A DNA stretch of 45,152 nucleotides, from positions 1-45,152 of the forward strand of contig JAGQRV010000009.1 in NCBI GenBank assembly GCA_020425125.1. The letters run 5' to 3'. Under the pieces are notes generated by a model, which worked only from the letters and a program-made list of their open reading frames with translations, was not told the origin of the DNA and searched no databases. Positions within the stretch are counted from its first letter, which is position 1; the number at the start of each line of letters is the position of its first letter. The DNA comes from Paracoccaceae bacterium (lineage in GTDB: Bacteria; Pseudomonadota; Alphaproteobacteria; Rhodobacterales; Rhodobacteraceae). Shown here in pieces: positions 6,269 through 38,664 of the stretch. The position numbers and the translations under genes were made by a program.

Positions 6269-6286
6269 CACCTGCCGTAACGGCAT

Positions 6287-6312
6287 GGCGCAGGTCCCGA
6301 GGGGCCTGCGCC
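6287..6312 (+). other. Intercistronic stem-loop between tctC and tctB
   Basis: GGCGCAGG and CCTGCGCC make a perfect 8-bp stem, extended inside by CCC/GGG with a bulged T. It starts 19 nt after the tctC stop and has no T-run. Hairpins here commonly stabilise the binding-protein part of the transcript and attenuate the permease genes, giving excess TctC. Function is inferred. Confidence 0.55.
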
Positions 6313-6340
6313 GCTTCCGCATCATGAAATGGAGACAGTG

Positions 6341-6772: not shown

Positions 6773-6781
6773 GGCCCCGAC

Positions 6782-8323: not shown

Positions 8324-8338
8324 TCCCGAGAGACCCCC

Positions 8339-9379: not shown

Positions 9380-9427
9380 CTTGTTCCTTCGCCGCGCCGA
9401 GCGTGGCGCCAGAGGAGGGAGGGGCCG

Positions 9428-25114: not shown

Positions 25115-25151
25115 GCCGGCCCACCTGTTCCTTTGACGTCTGGCGAATGCG

Positions 25152-26057
25152 TCACGTCCCGTCTCCCGCAAGGCCCTTGACCACGGTTTCGGAGGTGACC
25201 CGCAGAAGGTCGAGATAGGTCGGGACCGGTCCGCCCGGGTCGCTCAGGCTGTCGACGTAGAGGATGCCGCCGAACCGCGCGCCGGTTTCCCGCGCCACTT
25301 GTTGCGCCGGTTTGCTCGATACAGTGCTTTCGCAGAAGACCGCGGGGACGTCGTGTGCCCGGACCCCGTCGATGACTGCGCGCACCTGCTGCGGCGTGCC
25401 GGTCTGATCGGCGTTGATCGGCCAGAGATACAACTCCTTGAGCCCGAAATCCTGCGCGAGATAGCTGAACGCGCCCTCGCATGTGACCAGCCAGCGCTTT
25501 CCTTCCGGGATTGTCGCAACCTCGGCCTGGAGCGGTTCGATGGTCTCGCGGATCCGCGCCTTGTAGGCTTCGGCATTGGCCATGTAGGCCGCCGCATTGT
25601 CGGGGTCATGGGTCGCCAGGGCATGGGCGATGTTGTCGACATAGACTTGCGCATTCTGCAGGCCCATCCAGGCATGGGGGTTGGCCTTGCCCTCATAGGC
25701 GCCGTCGCGGATCGGGATCGGATCGATGCCGTCGCTGAGCGTCGCCGACGGCACGTCGCCGATAGTGTCGAGAAACTGGGCAAACCACCGCTCGAGATTC
25801 AGTCCGTTCCAGAGGATCAGATCGGCGTCCTGGGCTCGCAGGATGTCGCGGGGCGTCGGAGAATAGTTGTGGATCTCTGCGCCCGGCTTGGTGATCGAGA
25901 CCACCTCGGCAGAGTCTCCCGCCACGTTCTGCGCCATGTCGGCAAGGACCGTGAAGGTGGTGACGGCCTTGAACTTCTCGGCGGCCATGCACGCGGATGC
26001 GTCAAGTGAGCCGGCGAGAAGCAGAGCAGTGGCAATGGCGCGAACCGGTGGAATCAC
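25152..26057 (-). CDS. sitA: Metal ABC transporter periplasmic binding protein (SitA/MntA-like)
   Basis: A 301-residue cluster A-I binding protein. Metal ligands fit the His-His-Glu-Asp set of Mn/Fe proteins: His in GAEIHNYSP, His in NPHAWMGLQ, Glu in FCESTVSS and Asp in YVDSLSDPGGP. It has no His-rich loop, unlike ZnuA in this window. The start is GTG at 26057 with GGGAGA upstream. The signal peptide is MIPPVRAIATALLLAGSLDA-like. It is the first gene of the operon, preceded by a Mur-type palindrome, which supports manganese (and possibly iron) as substrate. Confidence 0.9.
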   Translation of the reverse strand: MIPPVRAIATALLLAGSLDASACMAAEKFKAVTTFTVLADMAQNVAGDSAEVVSITKPGAEIHNYSPTPRDILRAQDADLILWNGLNLERWFAQFLDTIGDVPSATLSDGIDPIPIRDGAYEGKANPHAWMGLQNAQVYVDNIAHALATHDPDNAAAYMANAEAYKARIRETIEPLQAEVATIPEGKRWLVTCEGAFSYLAQDFGLKELYLWPINADQTGTPQQVRAVIDGVRAHDVPAVFCESTVSSKPAQQVARETGARFGGILYVDSLSDPGGPVPTYLDLLRVTSETVVKGLAGDGT

Positions 26058-26127
26058 GAGGTTCTCCCGAGGCAATGGTTTGGGTCTTTGCCGAATATAC
26101 CCGTGAACGTGGATCCGGCAATGCAAA

Positions 26128-26142
26128 TGCGAATTATTCGCA
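26128..26142. promoter_or_regulatory. Fur/Mur-type 7-1-7 palindrome before sitA
   Basis: TGCGAAT-T-ATTCGCA is a perfect 15-bp 7-1-7 inverted repeat. It lies 71 bp before the sitA start, in an AT-richer patch. Mur (Mn-responsive Fur homologue) controls sitABCD in alphaproteobacteria through boxes of this geometry. Overlapping TGCAAATGC on the left may extend the site. The rest of 26058-26280 shows no gene. Confidence 0.65.
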
Positions 26143-26280
26143 ATCAACGCGACGCCGGTTCCGACTGTCGGGGCAGGAAGGCCGTGTTGCGCGTCTGACC
26201 CGACCGTGACGGTCAATCTGACAGGCCGCGATCCCGAAATGCGCCAGATGCCTCGGCTGCGCCGCTTAGGCAGTCCTGCC

Positions 26281-27777
26281 TTAGGAGCGGCGCTCCGGCG
26301 CCTCCGCGACCGGAATCTCCAGTTCGAATTCTGCGCCGGGTCCCGCCGAGTCGAGAAGACGGATGCTGCCGCCATGCGCAAGCAGGATACGGCGGCAGAG
26401 GGCGAGGCCCATGCCGGTGCCGCGGCCGCCGGTCTTCGTTGTGAACAACGGATCGAAAATTCGCGTCCGTAGGTCCAAAGGAACGCCCGGCCCGTCGTCG
26501 CGTACCGAAATGACGACCCGGTCCCGCGTCTTTCCGAGACGGGCCGAGACCGACACAAGGCCGTGCCGGCCGGTTTCTGCGAGTGCTTGCTGGGCATTTG
26601 TCATCAGGTTCACGAGCACCTGAACGACCTGCACCTCGTCGGCCAACACGGAGGGCAGCCGTGCGGCGACGTCGAAAGTCAGATCGAGGGGCGCATCAGA
26701 TGCGCCTGCGAGGAAGGTATCGCGCGCCGTTCCGATCAATCCGGCGATGTCGATCGGGGCGAGTTCCAGCGGATTCTCCCGTGCCATGGCGAGGAAGGTC
26801 CGGACGATTCCGACGCAACGTTCCGCGGCGTTGGCCAGTTTCTCGATCCGCATCGCGCGGCGATCGTCCCGGATCTCCTCTTTCAGGATCATCGCGTTGC
26901 CGACGACGATCGACAGCGGGTTGTTCAACTCGTGGGCCACGCCGGCCAGCAATTCGCCCAGGGCCGACATCTTTTCGGACTGGAAGGTGAGATCCTTCTG
27001 GCGTGCCAGTTCGTCCTGCATTTCCAGGTCGTCGGTCAGGTCCATGATGGTCGCGACGACCACGTCCTCGCCGCGATAATCGATCACACGCGCCGACACC
27101 GACGCCGGAAACGGACGGCCATCGGCGCGCCGGCCCTGCATCCGCATGTCGTCGACCCGCGCGCTGGACAACAGCGCGGTGACGAAATCGGCCCGTTCGA
27201 TCCGGTCGGCGAAATGTTCGTTGGTGTTGCGCGCGCTGCCCAGAAGTTCGGTCGCCGCCGGCGTGCGGTAAAGGATCTGACCGTCGCCGATGCGAAACAT
27301 CGTCAGGCTCGCCGGGCACGCCTCGAGCACCTTGGCCATGAGCAGATCGGTTTCGCGCTGCCGCTCGGCCTGGCCTTCGCGATCGACAGTTGCGCTTTCC
27401 ACCCAAGCGTAGCCGCCGGTCGAGATGCTCGTCATCCCAATCCTCGAGGCACCTCCCGGGCCGCGCAACTCAATGGGCTCGGCGGCCAGGCCCCGATTGA
27501 GCAGTTCGGATTCATTCAGTCGCAAGCGATCGCAGACCTGGCCCGGCAGCAAGCCGCGCCTCTCGATCTCGAGAAGGAGGATCGGCCACGATGTCCCGGT
27601 CTCCAGAAAGGCCGAGACCGCCCGATAGGTCTCGCGAAAGCGGCTGTTGACGGCGACAAGACGGCTCTCGCGGTCGAAGATTGCCACTGCATCCGAAACA
27701 AGGCCGATCGTCTCGGCAATCGACAGTTCTTCGCCCGTTTCGGCAGGTGCGCGCCCGGGTCGGGACACTGTATTCAC
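26281..27777 (-). CDS. PAS-domain sensor histidine kinase (cytosolic, no receiver)
   Basis: A 498-residue kinase with no membrane segment. Two PAS-like regions at about 21-130 (VSDAVAIFDRESRLVAVNSRF) and 145-255 (SLTMFRIGDGQILYRTPAATELLG) precede a short coiled coil. The phospho-acceptor His is about residue 282 (LLAGVAHELNNPLSIVVGN), followed by the N-box (LVNLMTNAQQAL), G1 (DDGPGVP) and G2 (GGRGTGMGLALC). It is closely similar to the hybrid kinase at 31337-33538 but lacks the receiver. The GTG start at 27777 overlaps the cyclase stop (GTGA) with GGGAGG upstream; a second GTG is at 27768. It is the last gene of the globin operon and has no adjacent regulator of its own. Confidence 0.88.
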   Translation of the reverse strand: MNTVSRPGRAPAETGEELSIAETIGLVSDAVAIFDRESRLVAVNSRFRETYRAVSAFLETGTSWPILLLEIERRGLLPGQVCDRLRLNESELLNRGLAAEPIELRGPGGASRIGMTSISTGGYAWVESATVDREGQAERQRETDLLMAKVLEACPASLTMFRIGDGQILYRTPAATELLGSARNTNEHFADRIERADFVTALLSSARVDDMRMQGRRADGRPFPASVSARVIDYRGEDVVVATIMDLTDDLEMQDELARQKDLTFQSEKMSALGELLAGVAHELNNPLSIVVGNAMILKEEIRDDRRAMRIEKLANAAERCVGIVRTFLAMARENPLELAPIDIAGLIGTARDTFLAGASDAPLDLTFDVAARLPSVLADEVQVVQVLVNLMTNAQQALAETGRHGLVSVSARLGKTRDRVVISVRDDGPGVPLDLRTRIFDPLFTTKTGGRGTGMGLALCRRILLAHGGSIRLLDSAGPGAEFELEIPVAEAPERRS

Positions 27778-28829
27778 CGTCCTCCCTTGGCCGCCGCGAG
27801 CGCCGGATCGGCCAGCTCCAGCACGGTCGGGGGCTGCGCGGCGGCGGCACCCCGGGCAGGCTGCGGCGTCAGCGAGAACCGCCCGTCGAGGAGGCCGGCG
27901 ATGCTGCCATGCGCGGCCACGCACATCGGGCCGGTCAGAGCGCGGGTCTCGGTCGCCGCGGCGACAGCCGGGCCGAACACGTCATAGATGTATTTCTGCA
28001 CGCCCACGACCGATCCGATCACCGGCCCCGCAGCCAGACCGATCCGGGCATGCCACTTGACAGGGTGGCTCTCGTTCCGGCGTCTGAGATACCGCATGAA
28101 CCGCACTGCGGCATTGGCGACGGATTCCGCGTGGTCAGCCACTGGATCGGGGACACCGGACACGGCAAAATAGCTGTCGCCGCTCGTGCGCACCCGCTCG
28201 CAGCCGAACTGATCACCGATACGGTCGAACGAGGTATAGATATCGTTCAGTTCGCTGACGATCACCGCGGGATCGTTGGCTGCAAGGATCTGGTCGAAAT
28301 CAGTGAAATCGAGCGTCAGCACCGAGACCGACTCGAAGACGCGCGGAGCCACCACGCCGAAGGTCTTGTATTCCTCGTAGGCCGAGCGCGGCATCATGTT
28401 GAGCAGGAGCTTTTCGACCTGCTCCTTCTCGCGCTTGATTTCGTGCGTGTTGCGTTCGACCATCATGGAATAGGAGTCGATCATCGACTCCAGTTCCTTG
28501 ATCCGCGTGATGTTCTGGCAGACGAGCACGGCAATTCCGTCCTCGTCATCGAGGGCACGGTTTAACTCGAGCGCCACCGTCATGGTCCGGCGGCGGAGCT
28601 TGAACGAGGTTTCCGCGGCGAAGCGCGTGCCGGACGTCATCGCAGCGGTCACGTCCGCCATGTCGAGTTCCGGGAATAGCTCGGCAACGCCGCTATCCGG
28701 GGACGCCTGACCGAACCATTCCGTGAAGGTGTCATTTCGGAACTTCAGCGACATCGTGTCGAGTTCGACCAGAGCCACGCCAACGCCGATGGCCCTCAGA
28801 AGCTGTTCGTTGATCGCTTCGATCGACAC
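27774..28829 (-). CDS. PAS-linked class III adenylate/guanylate cyclase-like protein with degraded catalytic residues
   Basis: A 351-residue protein. An N-terminal PAS-like domain spans about 1-110. A signalling helix/coiled coil (about 110-147) ends in LLLNMMPRSAYEEY, which matches the LLPxSVA linker of guanylate cyclases. A class III cyclase domain covers 165-325. Metal Asp174 (TLDFTDFD) and Asp218 (RTSGDSYF) are kept. The substrate Lys is replaced by Arg214. The G-D-x-V-N-x-A-x-R motif reads GPAVAAATE, so the transition-state Asn and Arg are Ala290 and Glu294. It is probably inactive or altered. The GTG start directly follows the globin stop, with AGAGG upstream. It belongs to a globin-cyclase-kinase operon. 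Confidence 0.82.
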   Translation of the reverse strand: MSIEAINEQLLRAIGVGVALVELDTMSLKFRNDTFTEWFGQASPDSGVAELFPELDMADVTAAMTSGTRFAAETSFKLRRRTMTVALELNRALDDEDGIAVLVCQNITRIKELESMIDSYSMMVERNTHEIKREKEQVEKLLLNMMPRSAYEEYKTFGVVAPRVFESVSVLTLDFTDFDQILAANDPAVIVSELNDIYTSFDRIGDQFGCERVRTSGDSYFAVSGVPDPVADHAESVANAAVRFMRYLRRRNESHPVKWHARIGLAAGPVIGSVVGVQKYIYDVFGPAVAAATETRALTGPMCVAAHGSIAGLLDGRFSLTPQPARGAAAAQPPTVLELADPALAAAKGGR

Positions 28830-29189
28830 CTAGGACCTCTTCAGAAGCGGCCGGCGTGCCTCGAACTCGCCGACGATGGCCTCGATATCGGCGTCGTCGA
28901 CCGAGAACTCTTCGAGCGTTTCGCTGACGAGTTCCTTCAGGCGGTCGAAATGGGCGTCTTCGATGATAAGGTGGTGGTGGGCGCGCTCGATATGCGCGTC
29001 GGTGAACGAGGCGGGACCGCCCATCAGGTAGGAGACGAACTTCGTCTGGTGGTCGATCAGCTTGGGCAGGTCGACGTCATCGAAGAACGGACCGATATCG
29101 TCGTCGTCCAGGAGCTTGTCGTAAAGCCGCAGCACGATCCGGCTGACCGTGGAGAAGCCGCCGTATTTCTCGAAGAGCGTCTGGTCCAA
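28830..29189 (-). CDS. glbN: Group I truncated haemoglobin (trHbN-like)
   Basis: A 119-residue 2/2 globin. It shows GGFSTVSRIVLRLYDKLL with Tyr23 at B10, FF at CD1, DHQTKF (His47/Gln48 near E6/E7), the GGP turn of group I, and the proximal His in RAHHHLII (His71 or its neighbours). It binds haem and thus O2 or NO. Here it is co-transcribed with a cyclase-like protein and a PAS kinase, so a sensor or NO-scavenging role is more likely than storage. The start appears to be TTG at 29189, because no ATG or GTG occurs in frame between an upstream stop (29211-29213) and the globin motif. The weak start would limit its level. Confidence 0.87.
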   Translation of the reverse strand: MDQTLFEKYGGFSTVSRIVLRLYDKLLDDDDIGPFFDDVDLPKLIDHQTKFVSYLMGGPASFTDAHIERAHHHLIIEDAHFDRLKELVSETLEEFSVDDADIEAIVGEFEARRPLLKRS

Positions 29190-29288
29190 GATCGCTGATC
29201 CCGTCTGTTGTCATGATTTCCAGCAAGTCATTGACCGCATGGCCATCGTGCCACCGGGCGGCGCGCGCGACAACCGTCTTGGCCATGT

Positions 29289-29317
29289 CTGCCCGGTGTG
29301 CCAGGCCCACCGGGCAG
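29289..29317 (-). terminator. Stem-loop after the cysteine synthase gene
   Basis: CTGCCCGGTG and CACCGGGCAG form a perfect 10-bp stem with a 9-nt loop, 16 nt after the cysK-grx stop. No T-run follows, so it may be a partial terminator or a processing/stabilising hairpin between cysK-grx and the globin gene. Confidence 0.5.
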
Positions 29318-29332
29318 GCAGTTCACGGTTCG

Positions 29333-30811
29333 TCAGCGCGGATGCAACCATGACGGCAGGAAGGAATAGGCGTCGGCCGTCATCGACGTATCGAACCCGA
29401 TCGAACGCGCCAGCAGCGCAGCCTGAAGCTGTCCGGAATTGAATGCGTCGAAGGTCTCGGTCGCACCCCCGACATGCTGTCCGCCGACGAAAATCTGCGG
29501 GATCGTCGGTTGTCCGGTGATTTCGCGCAGGGCTGCGCGGTAACGACCGCCCTTGTCGCCGGCCTGCATCGCCACCGAGTCGAGATCGACGCTGTCGTAG
29601 TCAATCCCCGCCTTGTCGAACATCCGGCGCACCGACCAGCAGAATTCACACCATTCGAGGGCGAACAGCACCACCGGCTTAGTGGAAATGATCTCCTCGA
29701 CCTCTGCCAGAGTAGCCTGATCGGCAGCAGGAGCCTTTGTGGTTGCAGGCGCCGGAGCCGGGCGGGTGTCGAACCGGTAACCGGGTGTGGAGCGCGACAG
29801 CGCCGCCTCTTCGTCATCCATCTCGGCGCCGATATCGGCAAAGAGCGGGGTCGTGAGGTAGCGCTCTCCGGTATCGGGGATCATGGCCAGGATCTTCGCA
29901 CCGGGCTCGGCGCTCCGGGCCACTTCGAGTGCTGCCGCAAAGGTCGCCCCGCCGCTGATGCCGCAGAAGATGCCCTCGCGCCGCGCAAGGTCGCGTGCGG
30001 CCCGCAGTGCGGATTCGCCGGGCACCGGCTGGAACCGGTCGATATGACCGGCCTGCAGCACTTCGTTGGCGAGCGGCGAGATGAAATCCGGTGACCACCC
30101 CTGCATCAGGTGCGGCCGAAACGCGGGGTGGCTGCCCCGCGCGCTGCCATCGGGGCCGAAATCCTGCGCGATTCCGCTGGCCAGGATTGCGGAATTGTCC
30201 GGCTCTGCCGCGACGATCCGTGTCGCCGGGCTCTCGGCCTTCAGGCGACGGGCGATGCCGTTGATCGTGCCGCCCGTGCCGAATCCGGTGACGAGGTAGT
30301 CGAGCCCGTTGGGTCCGAAATCGGCCAGGATCTCGGCGGCCGTGGTACGTTCGTGGACCTCTGCGTTGGCGGGGTTGTCGAACTGACGGGTCAGGAACCA
30401 GCCATGGGTCTCGGCCAGTTCCTTTGCCTTGGCGACCATGCCCGTGCCCTTTTCGGAAGCCGGCGTCAGCACGACGCGGGCGCCGAGGAAGCGCAGGAGT
30501 TTTCGCCGTTCGACGCTGAAGTTCTCGGCCATCACAACGACCAGCGGATAGCCCTTCTGCGCGCAGACCATGGCGAGGCCGATGCCGGTATTGCCACTGG
30601 TCGCTTCGACCACGGTCTGCCCCGGCTTCAGCGAGCCATCGCGTTCTGCCGCTTCGATCACGCCGAGCGCCAGGCGGTCCTTCACCGAACCGAGCGGGTT
30701 GAAGGCTTCGAGCTTGGCGTAGATCTCCACGCCTTCAGGCGCGAGATTGTTGATGCGGACGACCGGAGTGTTGCCGACGGTGTCGAGGATGGACGCATAA
30801 GGGCCAGACAT
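29333..30811 (-). CDS. cysK: Cysteine synthase fused to a C-terminal glutaredoxin domain
   Basis: A 492-residue fusion. Residues about 1-335 are an O-acetylserine sulfhydrylase: PLP Lys44 in NPLGSVKDR, the TSGNTG loop at 71-76, GFGTGGTINGI, and the late CGISGGAT loop. A Pro/Ala-rich linker (about 349-368) leads to a glutaredoxin domain at about 375-470. That domain has the active site WCEFC (Cys388, Cys391), TIPQIFVGGQHVGG with the cis-Pro, and a typical final helix. Ordinary CysK is about 310-330 residues. The fusion links cysteine (or persulfide) production to dithiol chemistry. It sits 35 bp after a small ORF and upstream of the globin gene. Confidence 0.92.
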   Translation of the reverse strand: MSGPYASILDTVGNTPVVRINNLAPEGVEIYAKLEAFNPLGSVKDRLALGVIEAAERDGSLKPGQTVVEATSGNTGIGLAMVCAQKGYPLVVVMAENFSVERRKLLRFLGARVVLTPASEKGTGMVAKAKELAETHGWFLTRQFDNPANAEVHERTTAAEILADFGPNGLDYLVTGFGTGGTINGIARRLKAESPATRIVAAEPDNSAILASGIAQDFGPDGSARGSHPAFRPHLMQGWSPDFISPLANEVLQAGHIDRFQPVPGESALRAARDLARREGIFCGISGGATFAAALEVARSAEPGAKILAMIPDTGERYLTTPLFADIGAEMDDEEAALSRSTPGYRFDTRPAPAPATTKAPAADQATLAEVEEIISTKPVVLFALEWCEFCWSVRRMFDKAGIDYDSVDLDSVAMQAGDKGGRYRAALREITGQPTIPQIFVGGQHVGGATETFDAFNSGQLQAALLARSIGFDTSMTADAYSFLPSWLHPR

Positions 30812-30846
30812 GACGGATTCCTTGGATACGTTACGGGAAGGTAGAG

Positions 30847-31035
30847 TTACCGCTGGCGGTACCAGTAGGGCGGCGCATCCCAGCGGGGCTGCCGGTCAGG
30901 CAGCACCGCGTCCATCTGCGCCCGGCGGCGACGGCGGATCACGAGCCGGCGCAACTGCGCCAATGGTGCGAAACCGAATGGCTCCCGGTGGTGCGGCCGT
31001 GGGCCGGTCGCGGTGCTCGGCGTCGTCATGGTCAT
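30847..31035 (-). CDS. Small Arg-rich protein of unknown function (62 aa, DUF1127-like character)
   Basis: ATG at 31035 has AGGGAAGGA 1-2 nt upstream (5-6 nt before a second in-frame ATG at 31029). The product starts MTMTTPSTATG, has a basic amphipathic helix (PLAQLRRLVIRRRRRAQM, about 25-42) and ends in an aromatic tail (WDAPPYWYRQR). The size and Arg-rich helix recall DUF1127 proteins, some of which bind RNA in Rhodobacter, but I do not see a clear family match. It leads the cysK-grx/globin/cyclase/kinase gene run with a 35-bp gap to cysK-grx. The longer in-frame extension to 31248 has no plausible start. Confidence 0.6.
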   Translation of the reverse strand: MTMTTPSTATGPRPHHREPFGFAPLAQLRRLVIRRRRRAQMDAVLPDRQPRWDAPPYWYRQR

Positions 31036-31239
31036 GTCCTTCCCTGGCTCGGTCTGCGGGCGGCAATTCTGGAAGCTCAGTTGCGATCGGACTGTTCTGG
31101 GCCGGCGATGTTGCTGGCAAATGTCTTGCGGCGGTTGCCCGCGTTTCGATTGTGTCGCCCCGCCGAACCGGAGGTTCGGGCTCTTTCGGAGCAATCGCAG
31201 GTGCTTGAGCTGGATCTCAGGATCCGGCCGGCCCCATTG

Positions 31240-31287
31240 CTGAAACAACTGAAACAGTCTGTCCCGGGTCTGAAAAGCGCTTGAAAC
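31240..31287 (+). promoter_or_regulatory. Tandem GAAAC element before the hybrid kinase (site a)
   Basis: CTGAAACAA-CTGAAACAG is a 9-bp tandem repeat at 31240-31257. Another TTGAAAC ends at 31287, 32 bp after the second repeat, and GTGAGG follows it by 14 bp. The same pattern recurs before the second haemoglobin and before OsmC. It lies 49 bp before the kinase ATG. The remaining sequence of 31036-31336 shows no gene and should also hold the divergent promoter for the small ORF-cysK operon. Confidence 0.6.
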
Positions 31288-31336
31288 ATTGCGGCCCTAG
31301 CGTGAGGAAAGAGACCGGGTGAGCGGAAGGACCGGC

Positions 31337-33538
31337 ATGGACGAGGCCAGCGCCCAAGTTCTGCGCGATGCATTCGAGGCGCTCGAGGATGGCGTGGCGG
31401 TCTTCGACGCCGACCGCCGTCTCCTGGCCTGCAACGCGCGGTATGCCGAGCTTCTCGCGGCGGTGCACGACATGCTGGTGCCGGGCACGCGGTGGGAGGA
31501 TCTGCTGCAGGCCTGCGCGCATCGGCATGTCTATGTGGACGCGGCAGAGGCACAGCGCGAGTGGCTGGCCAATGTTACCGGAACCGACGACGACGGCTCG
31601 AAACGGCTTGACCTCCGGCTGGCCGACGGACGCGTTCACTCGATTGCGTTTCAAGCCATCCGCGACGGCGGGTTTCTGGTGTCGCGGAGCGACGTGACCG
31701 ATCGGCGTCGGAAGGAGGCCGAAGCCGCTGCCCGCGCCCAACTTGCCGAGGCGGTGCTGGCTGCCCTGCCGGTTCCTGCCGCGCTGTACGATCTTGACCG
31801 CCGCAGGACGATCTATGCCTCGCCGGGTGCTGTGGCGCTGATGAAATCAACGGATGAGGTCTCCGAACTGATCCGGGATCCGGCGGACTGGGACCGCACC
31901 ATGGCCGACCTGCGGCGGGACGGCGCGGTCAGCGGGGCAAGGGTCATGCTGGCGATCCGGAACGGCGAAACGATACCCGCAACGCTCGATGCCGTTCTGG
32001 CGGAAATCGACGGCCGGCCTCATGCGCTGGTGGTGCTGTGCAAGGCGCATCGGGATACTGACTATGAGGGATTGCTGCGCGGCGTGGTTCAGGCCTTTCC
32101 GGCGCCGATCCTGATGACGCGGGCAAAGTCGGGGCAAATCCTTTTCAAGAGCCCGGAAATCGACCGGATCTACGGCAGTTCGGAGCATACCACCAGTTTC
32201 TGGGTAGAGCCGACGGATCGGGCCGCGTTCCTAGGTGCGCTTCGCCGCCGGGGCGAGGTCGAGGATTATCGCGCCCGCTTTCGCGGTGCCGACGGGCGGC
32301 CGTTCTGGGGGGCCGTCGCGGCGCGCCTGATTGAATACGAAGGCGAAGAGGTCATCGTGTCCTATTCGCGCGATCTGACGCGGCAAATGGAGATCGAGGA
32401 TGAGCTTGGCCGGCAGCGGGAACAGCTGTTCCAGAACGAGAAGATCGCCGCACTCGGGACGCTCCTAGCCGGCATCTCGCACGAATTGAACAATCCACTT
32501 TCTGTGGTCGTGGGCCACGCCATGATGCTGGAGGACGAGGCCGGCGATCCCGAGGTGCGCCGCCATGCCGGGAAGATCAGCGAGGCAGCGGCGCGCTGCA
32601 CGCGGGTCGTGCGCAGCTTCCTCACCATGGCGCGGGAAAAACCGGAACGCCGCGAGCGGGCCGATCTGGACGAGATCGTGGCGACCGCCGTCGACGTCGC
32701 CGGGTTCAGTGCCGGTGCAGAGATCGACATCCAATGCGATCCTGCGGGCGGCCTTCCTCCGGTCGAGGTCGATGCAGACCAGATCACGCAGGTCGTCATC
32801 AACCTGATCCTCAATGCCGAACAGGCCATCCAGGCGTCCGGGCAGGGCGGTCGGATCATCGTGCGCACCATGCCCGTTTCGGCCAAAGGAACCGTATCGG
32901 TCGTGGTGGAGGACGACGGTCCCGGAATTCCGCCAGACCTGGCCACGCGCATCTTCGAGCCGCTCTTCTCGACCAGGGCCGTGGGCGAGGGAACCGGGAT
33001 GGGGCTGGCCTTCTGTCACCGGATGATCCGCGCGCATGGCGGCGAGATCCGGCTCGATCCGGACCATACCAGGGGCGCGCGCTTCGTCATCGACCTGCCG
33101 GTCCGGGCGGAGCCGGACCGCCCCGACGATCGGGCCGGGGAAGTCACAGGCAGGACGAGCACGGCGCGCGTGCTGATAATCGACGACGAAGCCGATGTGG
33201 CCGAGCTTCATGCCGAGGTGCTTGCGCGGGCAGGTTACGACGTGGTGACCGCGCTCAGCGCGCACGAGGCGGTGGACCTCATGCGGAAATCGCGCTTCGA
33301 TGCGGTGGTCAGCGATCTCAACATGCCGGGACCGGGCGGACGAGGGTTTTTCGAGATGCTCCAGCAGGAATTCCGCGACCTTATGCAGGTCACCGGCTTC
33401 ATCACCGGCGACACGATGGGCCGCGCGTCCCAAAGTTTTCTCGCCGAAGCCAAACGCCCGTATCTGGAAAAGCCGGTCACCCCTGCCGAATTGCGCGACT
33501 TCGTCGGCCGGCTCCTTGCCGACGGAATTCCTCGATGA
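31337..33538 (+). CDS. Hybrid sensor histidine kinase with three PAS-like domains and a C-terminal receiver
   Basis: A 733-residue cytosolic protein. PAS-like domains lie at about 8-124 (LEDGVAVFDADRRLLACNARY), 134-239 and 244-349 (FPAPILMTRAKSGQILFKSPE). The phospho-acceptor His is about 382 (LLAGISHELNNPLSVVVGH), followed by an N-box (VINLILNAEQAI), G1 (DDGPGIP), F (FEPLF) and G2 (GEGTGMGLAFC). The receiver occupies about 608-729 with Asp660 (DAVVSDLNMPGP). ATG at 31337 has GGAAGGA 5 nt upstream and is preferred to GTG at 31319. It overlaps the response regulator (ATGA), so this is a kinase-regulator pair. It is paralogous to the kinase at 26281-27777. Confidence 0.92.
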   Translation: MDEASAQVLRDAFEALEDGVAVFDADRRLLACNARYAELLAAVHDMLVPGTRWEDLLQACAHRHVYVDAAEAQREWLANVTGTDDDGSKRLDLRLADGRVHSIAFQAIRDGGFLVSRSDVTDRRRKEAEAAARAQLAEAVLAALPVPAALYDLDRRRTIYASPGAVALMKSTDEVSELIRDPADWDRTMADLRRDGAVSGARVMLAIRNGETIPATLDAVLAEIDGRPHALVVLCKAHRDTDYEGLLRGVVQAFPAPILMTRAKSGQILFKSPEIDRIYGSSEHTTSFWVEPTDRAAFLGALRRRGEVEDYRARFRGADGRPFWGAVAARLIEYEGEEVIVSYSRDLTRQMEIEDELGRQREQLFQNEKIAALGTLLAGISHELNNPLSVVVGHAMMLEDEAGDPEVRRHAGKISEAAARCTRVVRSFLTMAREKPERRERADLDEIVATAVDVAGFSAGAEIDIQCDPAGGLPPVEVDADQITQVVINLILNAEQAIQASGQGGRIIVRTMPVSAKGTVSVVVEDDGPGIPPDLATRIFEPLFSTRAVGEGTGMGLAFCHRMIRAHGGEIRLDPDHTRGARFVIDLPVRAEPDRPDDRAGEVTGRTSTARVLIIDDEADVAELHAEVLARAGYDVVTALSAHEAVDLMRKSRFDAVVSDLNMPGPGGRGFFEMLQQEFRDLMQVTGFITGDTMGRASQSFLAEAKRPYLEKPVTPAELRDFVGRLLADGIPR

Positions 33539-34254
33539 CCGCCGGGCATCCGACGCTTCTGGTTTGCGACGACGAGGAAGGCATCCGCGGGATGCTCGAG
33601 GAATATTTCTCCAAGCGTGGCTATGCAGTCGTCGTGGCGACGAATACCGACGAAATGCGCGCCGCACTGGCAGAACGGAAGATCGATCTGGTCCTGCTCG
33701 ATATCCGGATGCCCGGCGAGGACGGACTGTCGGCGCTGCGCAGTCTGCGTGTTTCGGATCGGACCCCGGTCGTGATGCTGACGGCCGCCGATGAGTCGGT
33801 CGACCGGATCATCGGGCTCGAGATGGGCGCAGACGATTATGTCGGTAAGCCGGTCGATCTGCGTGAACTGGAGGCGCGAATCAAGGCGGTGCTGCGCCGC
33901 GGGGTGGCAGCCGCGTCGGACTCCGGGACGGATGCTCCGCGGAAATCGATTGCCTTCGCGGGGTTTACGCTCGATCTGGAGGCGGCGCGCCTCACGGATG
34001 CCGAGGGCAAGGAAATCGAGCTGACGGCGATGGAATTCCGGCTGCTGAAGCTGCTGGCGGAGAACCGCAAGCGCGTGCTGAACCGGGATCAGATCCTCGA
34101 ACAGGCGCATGACCGGCCGTGGGATCCCTTCGATCGAAGCATCGACATTCGCATCTCGCGGCTGCGCCGCAAGATCGAGAGCAATCCGCAGAAGCCGGAG
34201 ATCATCCGCACCGTCCGCGGGATCGGCTACGTCTTCGATCCGGACGGAGACTGA
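33535..34254 (+). CDS. OmpR-family response regulator
   Basis: A 239-residue regulator. The receiver spans 1-120 with acidic residues CDDEEG, phospho-acceptor Asp56 (DLVLLDIRMPGEDG), the Thr in VVMLTAADES and Lys in YVGKPVDL. The winged-helix domain spans about 135-235 (LTAMEFRLLKLLAENRKRVLNRD; RSIDIRISRLRRKIE; IIRTVRGIGYVFD). It is co-translated with the hybrid kinase and followed by a terminator-like hairpin. OmpR-type proteins bind tandem direct repeats, so it is the best local candidate for the tandem GAAAC elements. That assignment is inference. Confidence 0.93.
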   Translation: MTAGHPTLLVCDDEEGIRGMLEEYFSKRGYAVVVATNTDEMRAALAERKIDLVLLDIRMPGEDGLSALRSLRVSDRTPVVMLTAADESVDRIIGLEMGADDYVGKPVDLRELEARIKAVLRRGVAAASDSGTDAPRKSIAFAGFTLDLEAARLTDAEGKEIELTAMEFRLLKLLAENRKRVLNRDQILEQAHDRPWDPFDRSIDIRISRLRRKIESNPQKPEIIRTVRGIGYVFDPDGD

Positions 34255-34258
34255 TACG

Positions 34259-34286
34259 CCCCGCCGGGCGAGGTGCGGCGGGGTTT
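34259..34286 (+). terminator. Intrinsic terminator-like hairpin after the response regulator
   Basis: CCCCGCCG and CGGCGGGG form a perfect 8-bp stem with a 9-nt loop followed by TTT, 4 nt after the regulator stop. It lies between convergent genes. Confidence 0.6.
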
Positions 34287-34307
34287 GGGCGGTCCATCTG
34301 GTTTGGC

Positions 34308-34439
34308 TTACATCAGCATCGGCAAGCCGCAGTGGACCAAGACGCCGATGGCGGCGACAGCAGCCAGGCCGGCGGCCTGAAGGCGCCATCCGAAACGCCG
34401 AGGTGGTGCAGCGCGGGCGATGGCCGCTTCAGGCCGCAT
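34308..34439 (-). CDS. Tiny single-helix membrane protein (43 aa)
   Basis: MRPEAAIARAAPPRRFGWR is followed by a hydrophobic helix LQAAGLAAVAAIGVLVHCG and a short PMLM end. GGAGACA lies about 6 nt before the ATG at 34439. It overlaps the preceding 47-aa ORF by 11 bp. Positive residues before the helix predict an inside N-terminus. Function is unknown. Its place after a haemoglobin gene suggests co-expression. Confidence 0.5.
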   Translation of the reverse strand: MRPEAAIARAAPPRRFGWRLQAAGLAAVAAIGVLVHCGLPMLM

Positions 34440-34572
34440 GGCGCTGTCTCCGGGCCTGGACACGCTTGCCGGCGACCGTGTGGCGGGCTGCCCGCGGCCA
34501 GGGGCTGAACGGTCCCCAGATCTCGGCAGCAGGAACGGTTTGGACAACTTTGGCAGGCGCGTGAGCGGTCAT
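34429..34572 (-). CDS. Tiny basic protein (47 aa)
   Basis: ATG at 34572 is preceded by a strong GAGAGGAGAAAG Shine-Dalgarno. The product has an aromatic/proline patch (IWGPFSPWPRAARH) and an Arg-rich end (GKRVQARRQRHAA). No family is recognised. It lies 62 bp after the haemoglobin stop and overlaps the next tiny ORF, suggesting a three-gene unit. Its basic, small character is shared with the 62-aa protein at 30847-31035. Confidence 0.5.
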   Translation of the reverse strand: MTAHAPAKVVQTVPAAEIWGPFSPWPRAARHTVAGKRVQARRQRHAA

Positions 34573-34634
34573 GATCTTTCTCCTCTCTGACATTGGGTTG
34601 GTCGTCGGGTCTGGATGAAGAAGCGGCCGCACGG

Positions 34635-35069
34635 TTACGCGCTCCGCTCGGCGCGGGGCATTCCGCCCGCGATCATGGCGCAGGACACGGTTTCATAGGC
34701 AGCCGCCCAGGCATCGCGGGTGCGCGTCGCGAAAGCGTCGCCCAGCGTCTCGGACAGGGCCGAGATCAGCGCGCCGCCGACCGCGTCGTAATCCTCCGGC
34801 TCGACCCCGTAGCCGGCGTGACGACGGCCGAGATCGTAAAGCGCCGGAAGCAACCGGCCGGGGCGGCCGGCTTCGGCGATGACGAAGGCGACGGCTGCGC
34901 CAAGTTTGCGGCCCTGCGCGTCCATGTCGGTTCCGGCGAACATCGCCGCCTTCTCCGGCGCCCGCTCGAACAGGATTTCGTAGAAGCGGGTGATCAGGGC
35001 CGCACTCTTGGGCTCGGCCAGGGCCCAGCTCTCGCGCAACGTTTCGATGTGGGTTTCGGTCAGGTTCAT
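34635..35069 (-). CDS. Vitreoscilla-type single-domain haemoglobin
   Basis: A 144-residue 3/3 globin aligned to bacterial haemoglobin/flavohaemoglobin globin domains. Tyr30 is at B10 (TRFYEILFERAPE), Gln52 near E7, and the proximal His84 lies in LGRRHAGYGVEPEDY, the family hallmark. The C-terminal helix is WAAAYETVSCAMI. No reductase domain follows, so an external partner is needed for catalysis. Such globins handle O2 or NO. The start ATG at 35069 has GGAGAA upstream; an ATG at 35099 is in frame but lacks a good site. A tandem GAAAC element lies 45 bp upstream. Confidence 0.92.
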   Translation of the reverse strand: MNLTETHIETLRESWALAEPKSAALITRFYEILFERAPEKAAMFAGTDMDAQGRKLGAAVAFVIAEAGRPGRLLPALYDLGRRHAGYGVEPEDYDAVGGALISALSETLGDAFATRTRDAWAAAYETVSCAMIAGGMPRAERSA

Positions 35070-35113
35070 CGGGGTTCTCCGTTCCATCTCTGGCCTCACT
35101 CTGGGGGGCTGGC

Positions 35114-35162
35114 GTTTCAGCCTGACGGCCCGAGCGGGATCGTCTTGTTTCAGTCGTTTCCT
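35114..35162 (-). promoter_or_regulatory. Tandem GAAAC element before the haemoglobin gene (site b)
   Basis: On the minus strand AGGAAACGA-CTGAAACAA (35162-35145) is followed 33 bp later by CTGAAAC (35120-35114), then GTGAGG 14 bp further. Site a shows the same GAAAC-N14-GTGAGG end. It lies 45 bp before the haemoglobin ATG. Confidence 0.6.
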
Positions 35163-35186
35163 TGGGTCAGGTCAGCAACGCCGGAC

Positions 35187-36350
35187 TCAGGCGGCCAGCG
35201 CCGTCTCGGTCTGCGCCACATGCGCCTGTTCAGCCTTCATCACCGCGTGCAGATTCTGGTGCAGCATCTTCAGCTCGTCCGGCGTCCAGTCATGCGCGGC
35301 GATCCGGTCGGTGATCGCGAACAGATCGCGGCTCAGGGCGTCACGGGTCGCCTGCCACGCGGCCAGCGCGCCGGGAGCGCCGCTCAGAATGGCGCGGGCC
35401 AGGCTGTCGGCATCGCGTAGCGCATCGGTGATCCCGTGCGCCGTCGCCGGGTCCTTGAAATAGCCCGCATCGCCGACCAGGGCCCAGCCGGGCCCGAAGG
35501 ACTGGCGCATGAATCCGGGGGCTCCCGGAAAGCGGCGCAGCTTGTCCGACGGTCCCGCAGCGATGACCGCTTCCATGTCCGGAGCGGTCTCGGCGAAGTA
35601 CCGCCGCATCGCGGCATGCGGATCGTTGGCCAGAGCGTCGCGATACCGGGACGCCGCCACCGAGACGAACGCGCAGACCTGCCCGTCGTTGGTCGGGATG
35701 ATCCCGGCGCTCGTGCCCGGCCGGTATATCCAACGGTAGGCGTCGCTTGCCGGGGCATCGAAATAGCCGAACACGGTCGCCGACATGTGGTCCTCTGTCG
35801 CATAGGGCTCCGCGCCCACAAGCGAAGCTACCGTCGAGTTGCGGCCGTCCGCGCCGATCACCAGGTCGGCCGTGATGCGGCGGGTGTGCCCGGCGTTGTC
35901 GCGGGTCATGACGCCCCGCACCCGGCCGGACGGATCCTTGAGCGTCAGTTCAAGCCGCTCGCCATAGCGCAGCTCGGCGCCCGCCTCCGCCGCTGCGTTG
36001 GCCAGGGTGGTGTCCAGAACGGTCCGGCGCGGCGCGTACAGGCCCGCGACCGAACCGGCCGGCTTGATCGCCACATCGACCTGCTGGTCGCCGTAGTCGA
36101 AGACGGTCCGACGGACGACGGGGGTGCCCGCGGCGATCAGCCGGGGCAGGACGCCCCACCGATCAAGCAGCGTCACGCCGGCCCGCATCAGTGCGTGGGT
36201 CGACAGCGTGTCCAGCCCCGGCGGCGCACGGTCGATCACCAGCACCCGGGCGCCGCCGCGGGCGAGGTTCAGCGCGGTCGCGGCACCTGCCGGGCGGGCA
36301 CCGACGACAATGACGTCATAGTCTGGGCGAGAGAAATTGACCTGGGTCAT
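35187..36350 (-). CDS. FAD-dependent oxidoreductase (geranylgeranyl reductase/PHBH-like monooxygenase)
   Basis: A 387-residue flavoprotein. The N-terminal dinucleotide fold is VIVVGARPAGAATALNLAR, with the variation GARPAG instead of GAGPAG. Then come the DLVIGADGRNS motif and a GWALVGDAGYFKDPATAHGI motif, which define group A flavin monooxygenases and GGR-type reductases. It is third in OsmC-FMO-this gene, 18 bp after the FMO. The substrate is unknown. The C-terminal helical region (ELKMLHQNLHAVMKAEQAHV) ends normally. It is cytosolic, with no signal peptide. Confidence 0.85.
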   Translation of the reverse strand: MTQVNFSRPDYDVIVVGARPAGAATALNLARGGARVLVIDRAPPGLDTLSTHALMRAGVTLLDRWGVLPRLIAAGTPVVRRTVFDYGDQQVDVAIKPAGSVAGLYAPRRTVLDTTLANAAAEAGAELRYGERLELTLKDPSGRVRGVMTRDNAGHTRRITADLVIGADGRNSTVASLVGAEPYATEDHMSATVFGYFDAPASDAYRWIYRPGTSAGIIPTNDGQVCAFVSVAASRYRDALANDPHAAMRRYFAETAPDMEAVIAAGPSDKLRRFPGAPGFMRQSFGPGWALVGDAGYFKDPATAHGITDALRDADSLARAILSGAPGALAAWQATRDALSRDLFAITDRIAAHDWTPDELKMLHQNLHAVMKAEQAHVAQTETALAA

Positions 36351-36368
36351 GGTGATGCCTTTCGCGGT

Positions 36369-37610
36369 TCAGGCGGCCTGCCGGTCGGCAAGGCGGGCGA
36401 GCATGTGGTGGGCGAGGTCGCGGGCATCGGCTCCGGCCCCATCGATCAGGGTGGATTTGCGGCGCCGCAGGAACGGCAGCCCAAGCGCATAGAGGCCGGG
36501 TGCGCCGGTCACGACGCCGCCGTCATGGAGAAGGCGGCCCTTGCGGTCGAAGACCGGCAGGTCGAGCCAGGAATGATCCGGCCGGTAGCCGGTGGCCCAG
36601 AGAACGGTCCGAATTTCGCCGCGTGCGAAATCCAGATCGAGCAGCGGCGCGTCCGGCACGGCGGTCGGGGCGAACCGCTCCGGCGGGTCGGTTTCTCCGG
36701 CCAACCCCGCTTTGATGGCAAATGCATCGACGGCGTCGAGAAGCCGGTTCATCTTCAGGTCCGCCAGTGCGCAATGGTTGGCCAGCGCGCCCGAGAACAG
36801 GGCATGTCCGTCCCGGATCATTGTGAGCCGGCCGGCGACGCGAACGCCCATGGCCTGAAGGACATTGAGGTCCAGCGTGTCGGACCCCGCGACGAGCTGC
36901 ATCGAGGGCAGGCGGCGCACGCGGTCGAGATCGTCCACTTCGCGGTATCCGGTATCCTGGAGCCCGGAGGCGTCCATCCACCACTGGATGTCGCGGCCCC
37001 GGTAGCGCCGCGGGGCGCGGACATGTTCGCCCACGGCCAGGGTGACGGGACGCCCCGAGGCATGAATCTCGCGGGCGAGTTGCAGTCCCGTCGCCGAGGC
37101 GCCGACCACCAGCACGCCGCCTTCGGGTAGGTCGGAGGGGCGCTTGTAGGTCAGGGGTGTCGCCGAATGGATGCCGGACGGAAGCGCCGCTTTCGCCGCG
37201 GGAACCGAGGCGGTGACGCAGGCACCGCTGGCGACGACGAGATTGGCGCAAGTCAGGTCGCCCCGGTTGGTCCCGACCCGATACCCGGCCGGGTCGGAGG
37301 TGGCCGACATCACGTCGGTTCCCGTTTGGACCGGCAGTCCGAAGCCCGAGGTATAGGCGGCCAGCCGGGCGGCGACCTCGGCAGAGGCCATGAACCCGTC
37401 CGGGTCTGTTTCGTCATGGGCGTCGCCGGGTAGCCGGCTCTGCCAGTTCGGGGTCAGGAGGCGCAGCGAATCCCAGCGGTCCTTCCGCCAGGAATTCGCC
37501 ACCTCGCCGCGCTCCAGGACGACGTGATCCACCGAATGTGCGCTCAGCACCTGGCTCATGGCGAGCCCGGCCTGTCCGGCGCCGATGATGACGGTCGTAT
37601 GATGGTCCAC
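36369..37610 (-). CDS. Flavin-containing monooxygenase-like NAD(P)-binding protein
   Basis: A 413-residue protein with two dinucleotide folds: VIIGAGQAGLAMS at about 7-19 (FAD) and VLVVGASATGLQLAREI at about 166-182 (NADPH). The WDSLRLLTPNW and LWATGYRPDHSWLDLP motifs are typical of YUCCA/Trk-like FMOs. The start is GTG at 37610 with GGGAG upstream. It sits 39 bp after the osmC gene and 18 bp before the second flavoprotein, suggesting a three-gene operon. Substrates of this branch are soft nucleophiles (N or S) or small carbonyls; the actual substrate is not known. Confidence 0.88.
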   Translation of the reverse strand: MDHHTTVIIGAGQAGLAMSQVLSAHSVDHVVLERGEVANSWRKDRWDSLRLLTPNWQSRLPGDAHDETDPDGFMASAEVAARLAAYTSGFGLPVQTGTDVMSATSDPAGYRVGTNRGDLTCANLVVASGACVTASVPAAKAALPSGIHSATPLTYKRPSDLPEGGVLVVGASATGLQLAREIHASGRPVTLAVGEHVRAPRRYRGRDIQWWMDASGLQDTGYREVDDLDRVRRLPSMQLVAGSDTLDLNVLQAMGVRVAGRLTMIRDGHALFSGALANHCALADLKMNRLLDAVDAFAIKAGLAGETDPPERFAPTAVPDAPLLDLDFARGEIRTVLWATGYRPDHSWLDLPVFDRKGRLLHDGGVVTGAPGLYALGLPFLRRRKSTLIDGAGADARDLAHHMLARLADRQAA

Positions 37611-37649
37611 GACACGCGCTCCCTTTCCGAGGGTTGGAGTGGGCGACCG

Positions 37650-38216
37650 TCAGGCGACGGTCACGCTCACGTTTCCGGGGTTGGCGATGATGTCGAACAC
37701 TGCCGAACGCTTCTGCGACTGGGCGACAACCGCGGCGATTTCCTCCGGGGTCGCGTCCGCGTCGATCTCGAAGCGTACCCGGATACCACTGAAGCCGTTG
37801 CGCACATCCGCGTCGATGCCGAGGACACCGGCCAGGTCCATGTCGCCTTCGACGAACGCGGTGACCTTGCGCAGCTGAATGCCGCGGTGCTGGGCGACCG
37901 AAGCGACGCCGCCGGTGAGGCATGCGCCGAGAGCGGACAGCACGATCTCGATCGGCGTGGCGCCCTGGTTCTTTGCCGCGAACTGCTCGGGATGATCGGT
38001 TGTGATCTCGAAGCGGGCGTTCCGCTCCTGCTCGGCTCCGAGGCCGAAGAAGCCGTCGACGGTCGACTGGGTATGGACGCCGTCGATCCAGTCGCAGCGG
38101 GTGCGCCACTTGAACTGGCCGGCTGCCGGCATGCCGGTGATGGCCTCACGGGCGCCCAGCAGGGCTTCGACATTGACGCCGTTGTCGGCGGCCTTGATTT
38201 CGGTCTGTGCGTTCAT
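37650..38216 (-). CDS. OsmC-family protein
   Basis: A 188-residue OsmC/Ohr-superfamily protein. It shows the start NGVNVEALLGAREAIT, DHPEQFAAKNQGATPIEIVLSAL, and Cys in ALGACLTGGVASVAQHRGIQL. A second Cys is TRCDW. Such proteins act on peroxides or handle thiol/sulfur adducts. The ATG at 38216 has GAAAGGA upstream and matches the usual N-terminus. The frame is open farther to an ATG at 38351 that has an even better Shine-Dalgarno (AGAGGAAA), which would add 45 residues with a basic helix (MGAIRSFFRRMRG). Both starts may be used. Confidence 0.88.
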   Translation of the reverse strand: MNAQTEIKAADNGVNVEALLGAREAITGMPAAGQFKWRTRCDWIDGVHTQSTVDGFFGLGAEQERNARFEITTDHPEQFAAKNQGATPIEIVLSALGACLTGGVASVAQHRGIQLRKVTAFVEGDMDLAGVLGIDADVRNGFSGIRVRFEIDADATPEEIAAVVAQSQKRSAVFDIIANPGNVSVTVA

Positions 38217-38664
38217 GGCGACGTCCTTTCGTTCGCTCTGGTGGATGGAGTGGGTGGTGCCGCGCATGCGGCGGAAAAAGCTGCGAATGGCCCCCATCGG
38301 GCGGTTCGCGATTGCGTCGTCTGTCACGGAGGCGGCGCTCTGCATCGTCATCTTCGGTTTCCTCTTGTTGCGGCTCGAACCCGGTCGTGGTGTCCCGTTC
38401 CGATGCGAAGGAACTTGCAGGTCCGCTGTTTCCGCTGGATGTCCGCGTCGGCCGCCAAATGTTTCAATCGTTGGCGCCATGCATCAGGTGGGTTGCGGAG
38501 CCTTCCGGGGGCTGCGGACGATACGTGGCACGGTCAGTAGGCGATGCGCCGCTGGCCTGCGTGCAGACTGGCTGTCGGAAGATGCCGGATGCGGGGCATG
38601 ACCTTGCCTCTCCGGGTCGGTCAAATTATTGCCGTCGGAGGCGCAAGCAACGTGTCGGGGGCGA
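38217..38664. other. Divergent region between osmC and the transglutaminase gene
   Basis: 448 bp. The OsmC-proximal part (38217-38351) is an in-frame extension with its own start. The rest holds the tandem GAAAC site at 38428-38476 and no convincing gene. ORFs in other frames here are Arg-rich shadows. Confidence 0.5.
38428..38476 (-). promoter_or_regulatory. Tandem GAAAC element before osmC (site c)
   Basis: On the minus strand CGCCAACGA-TTGAAACAT (38476-38459) is followed 33 bp later by CGGAAACAG, whose GAAAC is at 38432-38428. The first half-repeat is weaker (CCAAC). The element lies 77 bp before the upstream osmC start. Its spacing matches site b exactly. Confidence 0.5.

Follow-up and report, generated by a model that had tools for sequence, protein, structure and literature searches.

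Gene organization of the cluster

The stretch of DNA analysed here, referred to throughout as the window, comprises 45,152 nucleotides (nt) and is a contig of the 4.02-Mb genome of a Paracoccaceae bacterium. It carries a cluster of globin, kinase, regulator and redox genes, which appears to be a so far undescribed bacterial system for gas or redox signalling. The core of the cluster is organized as two tight operons. On the minus strand, the gene for a stand-alone group I truncated haemoglobin (trHb; 28830–29189; Pfam Bac_globin, E 1.6e-13) is followed by that for a protein comprising a PAS domain, a signalling helix and a class III cyclase fold (CHD; 27774–28829; Pfam Guanylate_cyc, E 3.8e-29) and then by that for a PAS-HisKA-HATPase kinase without a receiver (HK1; 26281–27777). 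The trHb stop codon abuts the CHD start (TAG then GTG) and the ends of CHD and HK1 overlap as GTGA, the three genes having been described as co-transcribed in an earlier, sequence-only reading of the window. On the plus strand, a gene for a separate PAS hybrid histidine kinase with a C-terminal receiver (HHK; 31319–33538, with an ATG at 31337 as an alternative start) overlaps that for an OmpR-family response regulator (33535–34254; Pfam Response_reg and Trans_reg_C); the regulator gene starts at 33535 and the kinase gene ends at 33538, the overlap described previously.

The remaining members are all encoded on the minus strand. A CysK-Grx fusion (29333–30811; Pfam PALP and Glutaredoxin, with an NCBIfam match) is divergent from HHK. 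Beyond the OmpR gene lie a second globin of the Vitreoscilla/Hell's-Gate single-domain type (34635–35069; Pfam Globin), a FAD_binding_3 flavoprotein (35187–36350), a Pyr_redox_3 flavoprotein (36369–37610; nearest NCBIfam model the MSMEG_0569 family, below cut-off) and an OsmC-like protein (37650–38216; start inferred, with a longer open reading frame (ORF) reaching 38480). Pfam confirmed every gene named in the sequence-only reading. The PAS matches in HK1 were weak, being under or about at the Pfam cut-offs, and no PAS family in Pfam matched CHD, whose PAS fold rests on predicted structure; NCBIfam contained no match for CHD or trHb. A 133-amino-acid (aa) ORF at 30847–31248 is probably not a gene, since it has no Pfam match and overlaps the operator described below. 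Rfam gave no match within the window. For CysK-Grx a role in thiosulfate or S-sulfocysteine chemistry, and for the flavoprotein one linked to cyanide, were considered and left as unsupported.

Strict pairing of the truncated haemoglobin with CHD

A CHD profile built from five orthologs was scanned against 84,980 species genomes and gave 200 relatives, of which the best 80 are the basis of all locus counts given here as 'of 80'. By name, the hosts of these loci are members of the Rhodobacterales, Rhizobiales, Sphingomonadales, Kiloniellaceae and Sneathiella. The trHb gene lies directly upstream of CHD in 80/80 loci, at a distance of −11 to +10 nt, and is fused to it in none. The same arrangement was seen in 21/21 further CHD ortholog loci, among which one (L108) is the window itself, two (L109 and L005) belong to one genome and one (L003) comes from the genome of L026. 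No trHb was found beside other class III cyclases in 28 loci, each inspected for about 1.5 kb on both sides. A second sample comprised 385 alphaproteobacterial genomes drawn evenly, and CHD matches at a cut-off of E 1e-40 were found in 35 of them. Of these, 17, including the genome of the window, had scores above 300 bits, and no other match listed reached 170 bits. An apparent CHD fusion in L073 was discarded, as the ORF merely runs on without similarity to a kinase.

The other components are found at varying frequency. An OmpR regulator (at least 200 bits) was detected in 66/80 loci and an HHK match in 72/80, a count that includes CHD-linked kinases. OsmC was present in 38 of the 80 loci, CysK-Grx in 37, Pyr_redox_3 in 34, FAD_binding_3 in 33 and the second globin in nine, with several misses reflecting locus or contig ends inside the cluster. 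Three layouts recur. In type A (Ruegeria and others), OmpR-HHK diverges from hydrolase-methyltransferase-trHb-CHD and no kinase follows CHD. Type B (Salipiger, Defluviimonas, Croceicoccus and others) has the order OsmC-flavoproteins-trHb-CHD-kinase-OmpR-(globin)-CysK-Grx. In type C (the window, Tropicimonas and Fluviibacterium), OmpR-HHK diverges from CysK-Grx, and the order of OsmC, the flavoproteins and trHb-CHD-HK1 varies. Some loci match none of these layouts.

The gene set is thus conserved beyond this genome, and the association is far above chance because trHb adjoins CHD in every one of the 80 loci and a kinase and OmpR are near in most. Absence of co-occurrence from other genomes had been set beforehand as the result that would refute the proposal of a common system; instead, co-occurrence is strong in many alphaproteobacteria. 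The proposal that all these genes form one group held for the linked core, whereas OsmC, the flavoproteins and CysK-Grx constitute a separable enzyme module, the two flavoproteins being variable, and the second globin is an optional member (9/80 loci).

Two further neighbours were observed. In type A loci, genes for an alpha/beta hydrolase and a UbiE-like methyltransferase stand between the operator and trHb-CHD (L057:7737-8576 and L058:8648-9478), and the substrate of these enzymes may hold a clue to the stimulus. A pyridoxal-dependent decarboxylase adjoins CysK-Grx in 14/14 loci that have one (L033:3479-4936 and 13 more); its nearest NCBIfam model is L-2,4-diaminobutyrate decarboxylase, below cut-off.

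A phased direct-repeat operator precedes several operons

Motif discovery in 62 thinned upstream regions of HHK, some of them from CHD-linked kinases, returned TGTTTCAATTGTTTCA, and a search of 33 OsmC upstream regions arrived independently at the same motif. The candidate operator consists of phased direct repeats of TGAAAC. In the window it reads TGAAACA-AC-TGAAACA at 31241–31256 on the plus strand, directed towards HHK, with further half-sites TGAAAA (31271) and TGAAACA (31282) within 31271–31288 on the same strand, at +30 and +41 of the conserved operator. A second site, GGAAACGACTGAAACA, precedes the second globin at 35146–35161 on the minus strand; it has three mismatches and a further TGAAAC at +42. 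A weak candidate about 244 nt before OsmC (38460–38475, minus strand) scored 8.4 bits, below the maximum of 13.5 bits in the shuffled window, and is not claimed.

A matrix built from the HHK upstream regions gave 198 matches above 16 bits in the 1.58 Mb of the 80 loci, a few palindromic sites being counted on both strands. They are distributed over 75/80 loci, and 161 of the 198 lie at most 400 bp upstream of a cluster gene; the reversed matrix had no match above 16 bits in the same loci. At a threshold of 14 bits, and with the window included in the promoter sets, sites were present before 44/52 separate HHKs, 28/38 OsmC genes and 9/9 second globins, and before 13/80 trHb and 11/38 CysK-Grx genes. 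None was found before the 24 kinases that directly follow CHD, and reversed matches were zero in every set. All 44 HHK promoters with a site carry a further TGAAAC at exactly +41; within the HHK and the trHb sets the promoters are related, and these counts are not independent. The further repeat is at +42 in 11/13 trHb, 11/28 OsmC and 4/9 globin promoters and at +32 in 8/28 OsmC promoters, and is often preceded by a GAAA or GACA half-site. Among the eight separate HHKs without a site, six (L076, L080, L085, L087, L088 and L094) have one before the neighbouring hydrolase, the start assigned to HHK probably lying too far inside; the loci of the other two (L051 and L099) contain operator sites elsewhere. 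When CysK-Grx upstream regions were searched alone, a different pattern was obtained, which is not the operator. CysK-Grx is accordingly tied in mainly via the divergent HHK promoter and the 11/38 upstream regions that carry a site.

Within the genome of the window, no match other than 31241–31256 has fewer than two mismatches, and in 15/16 other genomes the operator was found with at most two. Matches away from the cluster occur in L172, L173, L174, L175, L177 and L178; Pfam families near those in L172 and L174 are CHAP and S-methyl_trans with Indigoidine_A, respectively. In Roseovarius aestuarii (L174:6222-8373) a 28.4-bit site lies between genes of the homocysteine S-methyltransferase and Indigoidine_A families, off the cluster.

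Operator sites also accompany some unlinked copies of the enzyme module. In Hoeflea poritis, an OsmC-flavoprotein operon located elsewhere on the genome has two operator sites. Close OsmC-flavoprotein loci that are unlinked to the system in system-positive genomes had a site above 14 bits within the 3–4 kb locus in 7/16 cases, in comparison with 0/3 close loci in relatives lacking CHD and 2/36 distant homologs (7/16 versus 2/36, Fisher p 0.002, with the kinship of the genomes ignored). In this comparison L199 was counted though its site is only at threshold, and L184, which ends at OsmC, was counted as a miss. Two loci with sites were left out: L213, which is the linked cluster of G005, and L214, for which CHD status was not searched. 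The exact operator 16-mer was present in 12/385 genomes, 4/17 with CHD and 8/368 without (p 0.001); six of the eight CHD-less genomes are 1.2–1.4 Mb in size. In two deep relatives (G230 and G323) an HHK-OmpR pair with perfect sites lies away from trHb-CHD, and an OsmC homolog is near another site. In G317, HHK-OmpR-trHb-CHD form a single group, and both OmpR and trHb are preceded by a perfect site. In G377, where CHD is below cut-off, HHK-OmpR is near a perfect site, and G331 has a perfect site without any of these genes. The operator thus goes mostly with the kinase-OmpR pair.

The regulator combines a receiver with a winged-helix domain and is encoded beside a kinase with a phospho-acceptor His, and a putative direct-repeat operator precedes its own operon, as in OmpR/PhoB-type systems. 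The phospho-acceptor His is present in every row with a letter at that position (53 HHK and 43 HK1 rows). There is a strong case, drawn from sequence, that the OmpR protein would bind the operator, and it is very likely that the cluster is part of a regulon with OmpR. The sequence-only reading had the whole group answering through this regulator. The sharing of an operator by several cluster operons, some of them unlinked, sustains the regulon idea; that OmpR itself is the binder we infer.

Several observations weigh against such a regulon. The matrix derives from HHK upstream regions, so the counts for HHK and the hydrolase are partly circular. The second operator of the window reaches only 14.3 bits, close to the shuffled maximum of 13.5, and at three mismatches there are five matches genome-wide compared with three for the reversed control. 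Being near control level, this site draws its support from its position, from the additional half-site and from its orthologs. Immediately in front of trHb and of OsmC, the window has no convincing site. Across the 16 other genomes the control pattern, at up to two mismatches as well, gave four matches in three genomes, and several matches to the true pattern lie away from the cluster. Two Sneathiella trHb-CHD loci have no operator in the locus, nor one with at most one mismatch genome-wide. Furthermore, HHK-OmpR orthologs were within reach in only two (L241 and L247) of 11 further trHb-CHD loci examined with wide flanks.

The window CHD resembles soluble guanylate cyclase and is predicted to be a pseudo-cyclase

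The window CHD was modelled with AlphaFold2 from 54 sequences (mean pLDDT 86.8, pTM 0.61), and the model combines a PAS-like domain with a long helix and a cyclase fold. In a Foldseek search the first 15 matches were chains of human or Manduca soluble guanylate cyclase (E 1.3e-17 to 6.3e-15), with bacterial adenylyl cyclases ranking after them. The best of these E values was obtained with 8hbh_A (366 columns, TM by query 0.50, root-mean-square deviation 15 Å). Whole-length deviations are large (13–18 Å), so the likeness lies in the domain order and the folds and not in the exact arrangement. Soluble guanylate cyclase, the nitric oxide (NO) receptor of animals, is built as H-NOX-PAS-coiled coil-cyclase. 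CHD has the same PAS-helix-cyclase build, and a haem protein accompanies the cyclase-fold transmitter in both. The differences are equally clear. CHD has no fused H-NOX, its 351 aa starting at the PAS-like part with Guanylate_cyc as the only Pfam match, and what is presumed to be the haem part is encoded separately, as a group I globin of another fold; moreover, in the window the catalytic Asn and Arg are lost and a kinase output is added.

The positions of the catalytic Asn and Arg were set by alignment to adenylyl cyclase 8, and the catalytic and substrate-specificity roles of the aligned residues are those we take them to have in class III cyclases generally. The window CHD keeps the metal-binding Asp174 and Asp218, but the Asn and Arg of intact orthologs are replaced by Ala290 and Glu294, so that it lacks the full set of two Asp plus Asn and Arg of an active class III cyclase. 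It also has Arg214 where most have Lys. Residues were analysed in 97 orthologs, leaving out two with broken frames (L115 and L121) and three duplicates (L003, L005 and L108). Both Asn and Arg are kept in 49/53 orthologs without a directly downstream kinase and in 0/44 with one; Lys, Asn and Arg, the adenylyl-cyclase pattern, are all kept in 47 of the 53. Among the 351 positions, 294 and 290 rank first and fifth in excess variability when the 44 kinase rows are set against the 53 others (mean pairwise identity 64% in both groups), and second and 15th when the comparison is with 37 less diverged (76%) non-kinase loci of the 80. In the kinase clade these two positions hold many different residues, and the first metal Asp is replaced by Ser in two members and by Asn in one. 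The sequence-only reading's 'cyclase-like' protein has a true class III cyclase fold, with the catalytic residues lost. In comparison with PAS class III adenylyl cyclases, CHD shares the fold and the metal residues, and the window clade differs in having lost the transition-state residues. The window CHD is in all likelihood non-catalytic, and is predicted to be a pseudo-cyclase, other members of its family being intact.

In the CHD tree, the kinase-bearing proteins form one clade of 45 rows (SH-aLRT 99), with two changes of kinase state and three of active-site state. The downstream kinases likewise form one clade (43 rows, SH-aLRT 99) beside 53 HHKs, as expected from duplication. A receiver match was found in 20/20 rows of that clade outside the subclade of the window and in 0/23 within it. 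The pseudo-cyclase reading also has to accommodate some contrary evidence. Four CHDs without a downstream kinase (L006, L052, L054 and L073) have lost one or both residues as well, and L030 has a kinase yet keeps Asn. Kinase arrival and active-site loss were probably one ancestral event and not repeated convergence, so that their association is not statistically independent evidence; an independent-pairs test yielded two pairs only, too few to have any power. The kinase rows have lower entropy than the 53 others in the PAS domain (1.21 versus 1.65) and the helix (0.22 versus 0.55), but the 37 closer non-kinase rows, at 1.13 and 0.17, are no less conserved. The PAS domain and helix therefore remain under constraint, and no increase is claimed.

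Haem pockets of the two globins

The window trHb has the family match, the proximal His and the distal Tyr and Gln of a group I truncated haemoglobin. Its nearest Protein Data Bank (PDB) structures are cyanoglobin 2hz2 and the group 1 trHb 3aq5, with THB1 (4xdi) also among the relatives. Tyr23, Phe36, His47 and Gln48 are invariant in the 80/80 rows complete there, as is His71 in 81/81. Because His47 aligns with the cyanoglobin His next to Gln, which we take to be the sixth haem ligand, a haem that switches ligands is plausible from the alignment. The nearest PDB structure of the second globin is 3s1i, and its presumed pocket residues Tyr, Phe, Gln and His are kept in 11 aligned sequences.

Interpretation

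Taken together, the data are best explained by a haem-based two-component regulon, to which we give a probability of about 0.6. The sequences themselves show the linkage of the genes, the loss of catalytic residues, the duplication of the kinase and the presence of the operator beside its neighbours; the steps beyond these are proposed. In this mechanism trHb would be the gas- or redox-responsive partner of CHD and would pass its haem state on to it. CHD, which in this lineage would lack cyclase chemistry, would serve as a nucleotide- or metal-binding adaptor that relays the state of trHb to HK1 and to its paralog HHK, and the two kinases would set the phosphorylation of the OmpR-family regulator. 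This regulator would then bind the TGAAAC direct repeats and activate its own operon together with the second globin and the redox and thiol genes, with CysK-Grx, OsmC and the flavoproteins as outputs in varying combinations. The steps from trHb through CHD to the kinases are proposed because the linkage is strict and because guanylate cyclase and H-NOX systems are similar. Our confidence in an action of trHb and CHD on the kinases is moderate, and we consider a role of trHb as the sensor input somewhat better than an even bet. That the ligand is O2 or NO is a weak suggestion, and a diatomic gas, peroxide or sulfur stress as the stimulus, as put forward in the sequence-only reading, is a proposal.

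A different division of labour would make both globins outputs. According to this alternative, trHb is an NO dioxygenase or an enzyme of O2 chemistry induced by OmpR, the kinases sense otherwise via their own PAS domains, and the signal of CHD is unrelated to haem. Both globins do look regulated, with the operator directly before 13/80 trHb and 9/9 second globin genes, and trHb has Tyr and Gln at what we take to be the O2-stabilising positions of group I globins. However, trHb is tied more tightly to CHD (80/80 loci, and 0/28 for other cyclases) than to any enzyme gene, this tie persists in loci that lack a nearby kinase or OmpR ortholog, and a detoxifying enzyme would need no cyclase-fold partner. 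We therefore regard globins acting purely as outputs as unlikely, though deserving serious attention.

It is more doubtful still that the altered site of the window CHD yields a cyclic nucleotide, or some other nucleotide product, as a second messenger parallel to the kinases. Its two metal Asp residues and the adenine-side Asp283 are kept, the fold is intact in the model, and most kinase-less relatives (47/53) retain the full adenylyl-cyclase set of Lys, Asp, Asn and Arg. Against this, the varied residues at the Asn and Arg positions of the kinase clade, with the first metal Asp changed in three of its members, have the appearance of a relaxed, unused site. Finally, the variable gene order and the frequent absence or relocation of the enzyme module would fit neighbours brought together by shared inheritance or co-transfer without any common signalling function, but a fixed-phase operator shared by several operons, some unlinked, with no reversed-matrix match in the 80 loci, makes this very improbable.

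A bolder form of the haem-based two-component regulon is offered tentatively, as possible and short of probable. Here trHb and CHD would be a bacterial version of soluble guanylate cyclase in 'split' form, in which a free truncated globin docks on a PAS-helix-cyclase protein and passes on O2 or NO binding. The older form would make cAMP, and in a single clade with members from the Rhodobacterales, Sphingomonadales and Rhizobiales a duplicated kinase would have joined the operon, the cyclase died and the pair been rewired from second messenger to phosphorelay and OmpR regulon.

The proposed system shares features with several known ones. In systems of the H-NOX/HnoK type, a stand-alone haem protein controls a partner histidine kinase; the present cluster is alike in its stand-alone haem protein gene and in a (hybrid) histidine kinase feeding a response regulator. 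The haem partner is H-NOX there and a Bac_globin trHb here; in the present cluster a cyclase-fold protein stands between haem protein and kinase, and the output is an OmpR-type DNA-binding regulator with a defined operator. Globin-coupled sensors likewise use a globin as the presumed gas sensor for signalling, but there the globin is fused to its transmitter, whereas here it is unfused and of the truncated group I type. In Chlamydomonas, the truncated haemoglobin THB1 and a guanylate cyclase take part in NO signalling, so that a group I truncated globin and a cyclase are again found in one pathway; to our knowledge that pathway has no two-component kinase, and it is not an operon. The sequence-only reading knew of no described system with this gene set, and we found none in the titles and abstract starts of open-licence PubMed Central articles, a library with few subscription journals and no preprints.

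For many of the truncated haemoglobins of bacteria no function has been assigned. An association as strict and widespread as the one with a guanylate-cyclase-like protein and a two-component regulon would place a group of them in signalling. The CHD family, with an intact cyclase on one side and a pseudo-cyclase plus kinase on the other, offers a natural before-and-after pair for a change of output in a signalling protein. With a defined operator, the regulon is directly testable in cultivable marine bacteria, Ruegeria, Roseovarius and Tropicimonas among them.

Other features of the window

Directly downstream of HK1, at 22465–26150 on the minus strand, lies a ZnuA-type metal ABC transporter set consisting of two ABC-3 permeases, an ATPase and the ZnuA binding protein. 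Beside the 80 CHD loci, ZnuA gave one weak match only. A stop-free frame of 1775 aa at 5216–10543 on the minus strand has no Pfam match and is antisense to long plus-strand ORFs; its GC content is highest at codon position 1, which points to a shadow frame. At 17551–19247 on the plus strand, outside the system discussed here, an Amidoligase_2 ORF overlaps an ORF for a peptidase C26 glutamine amidotransferase.

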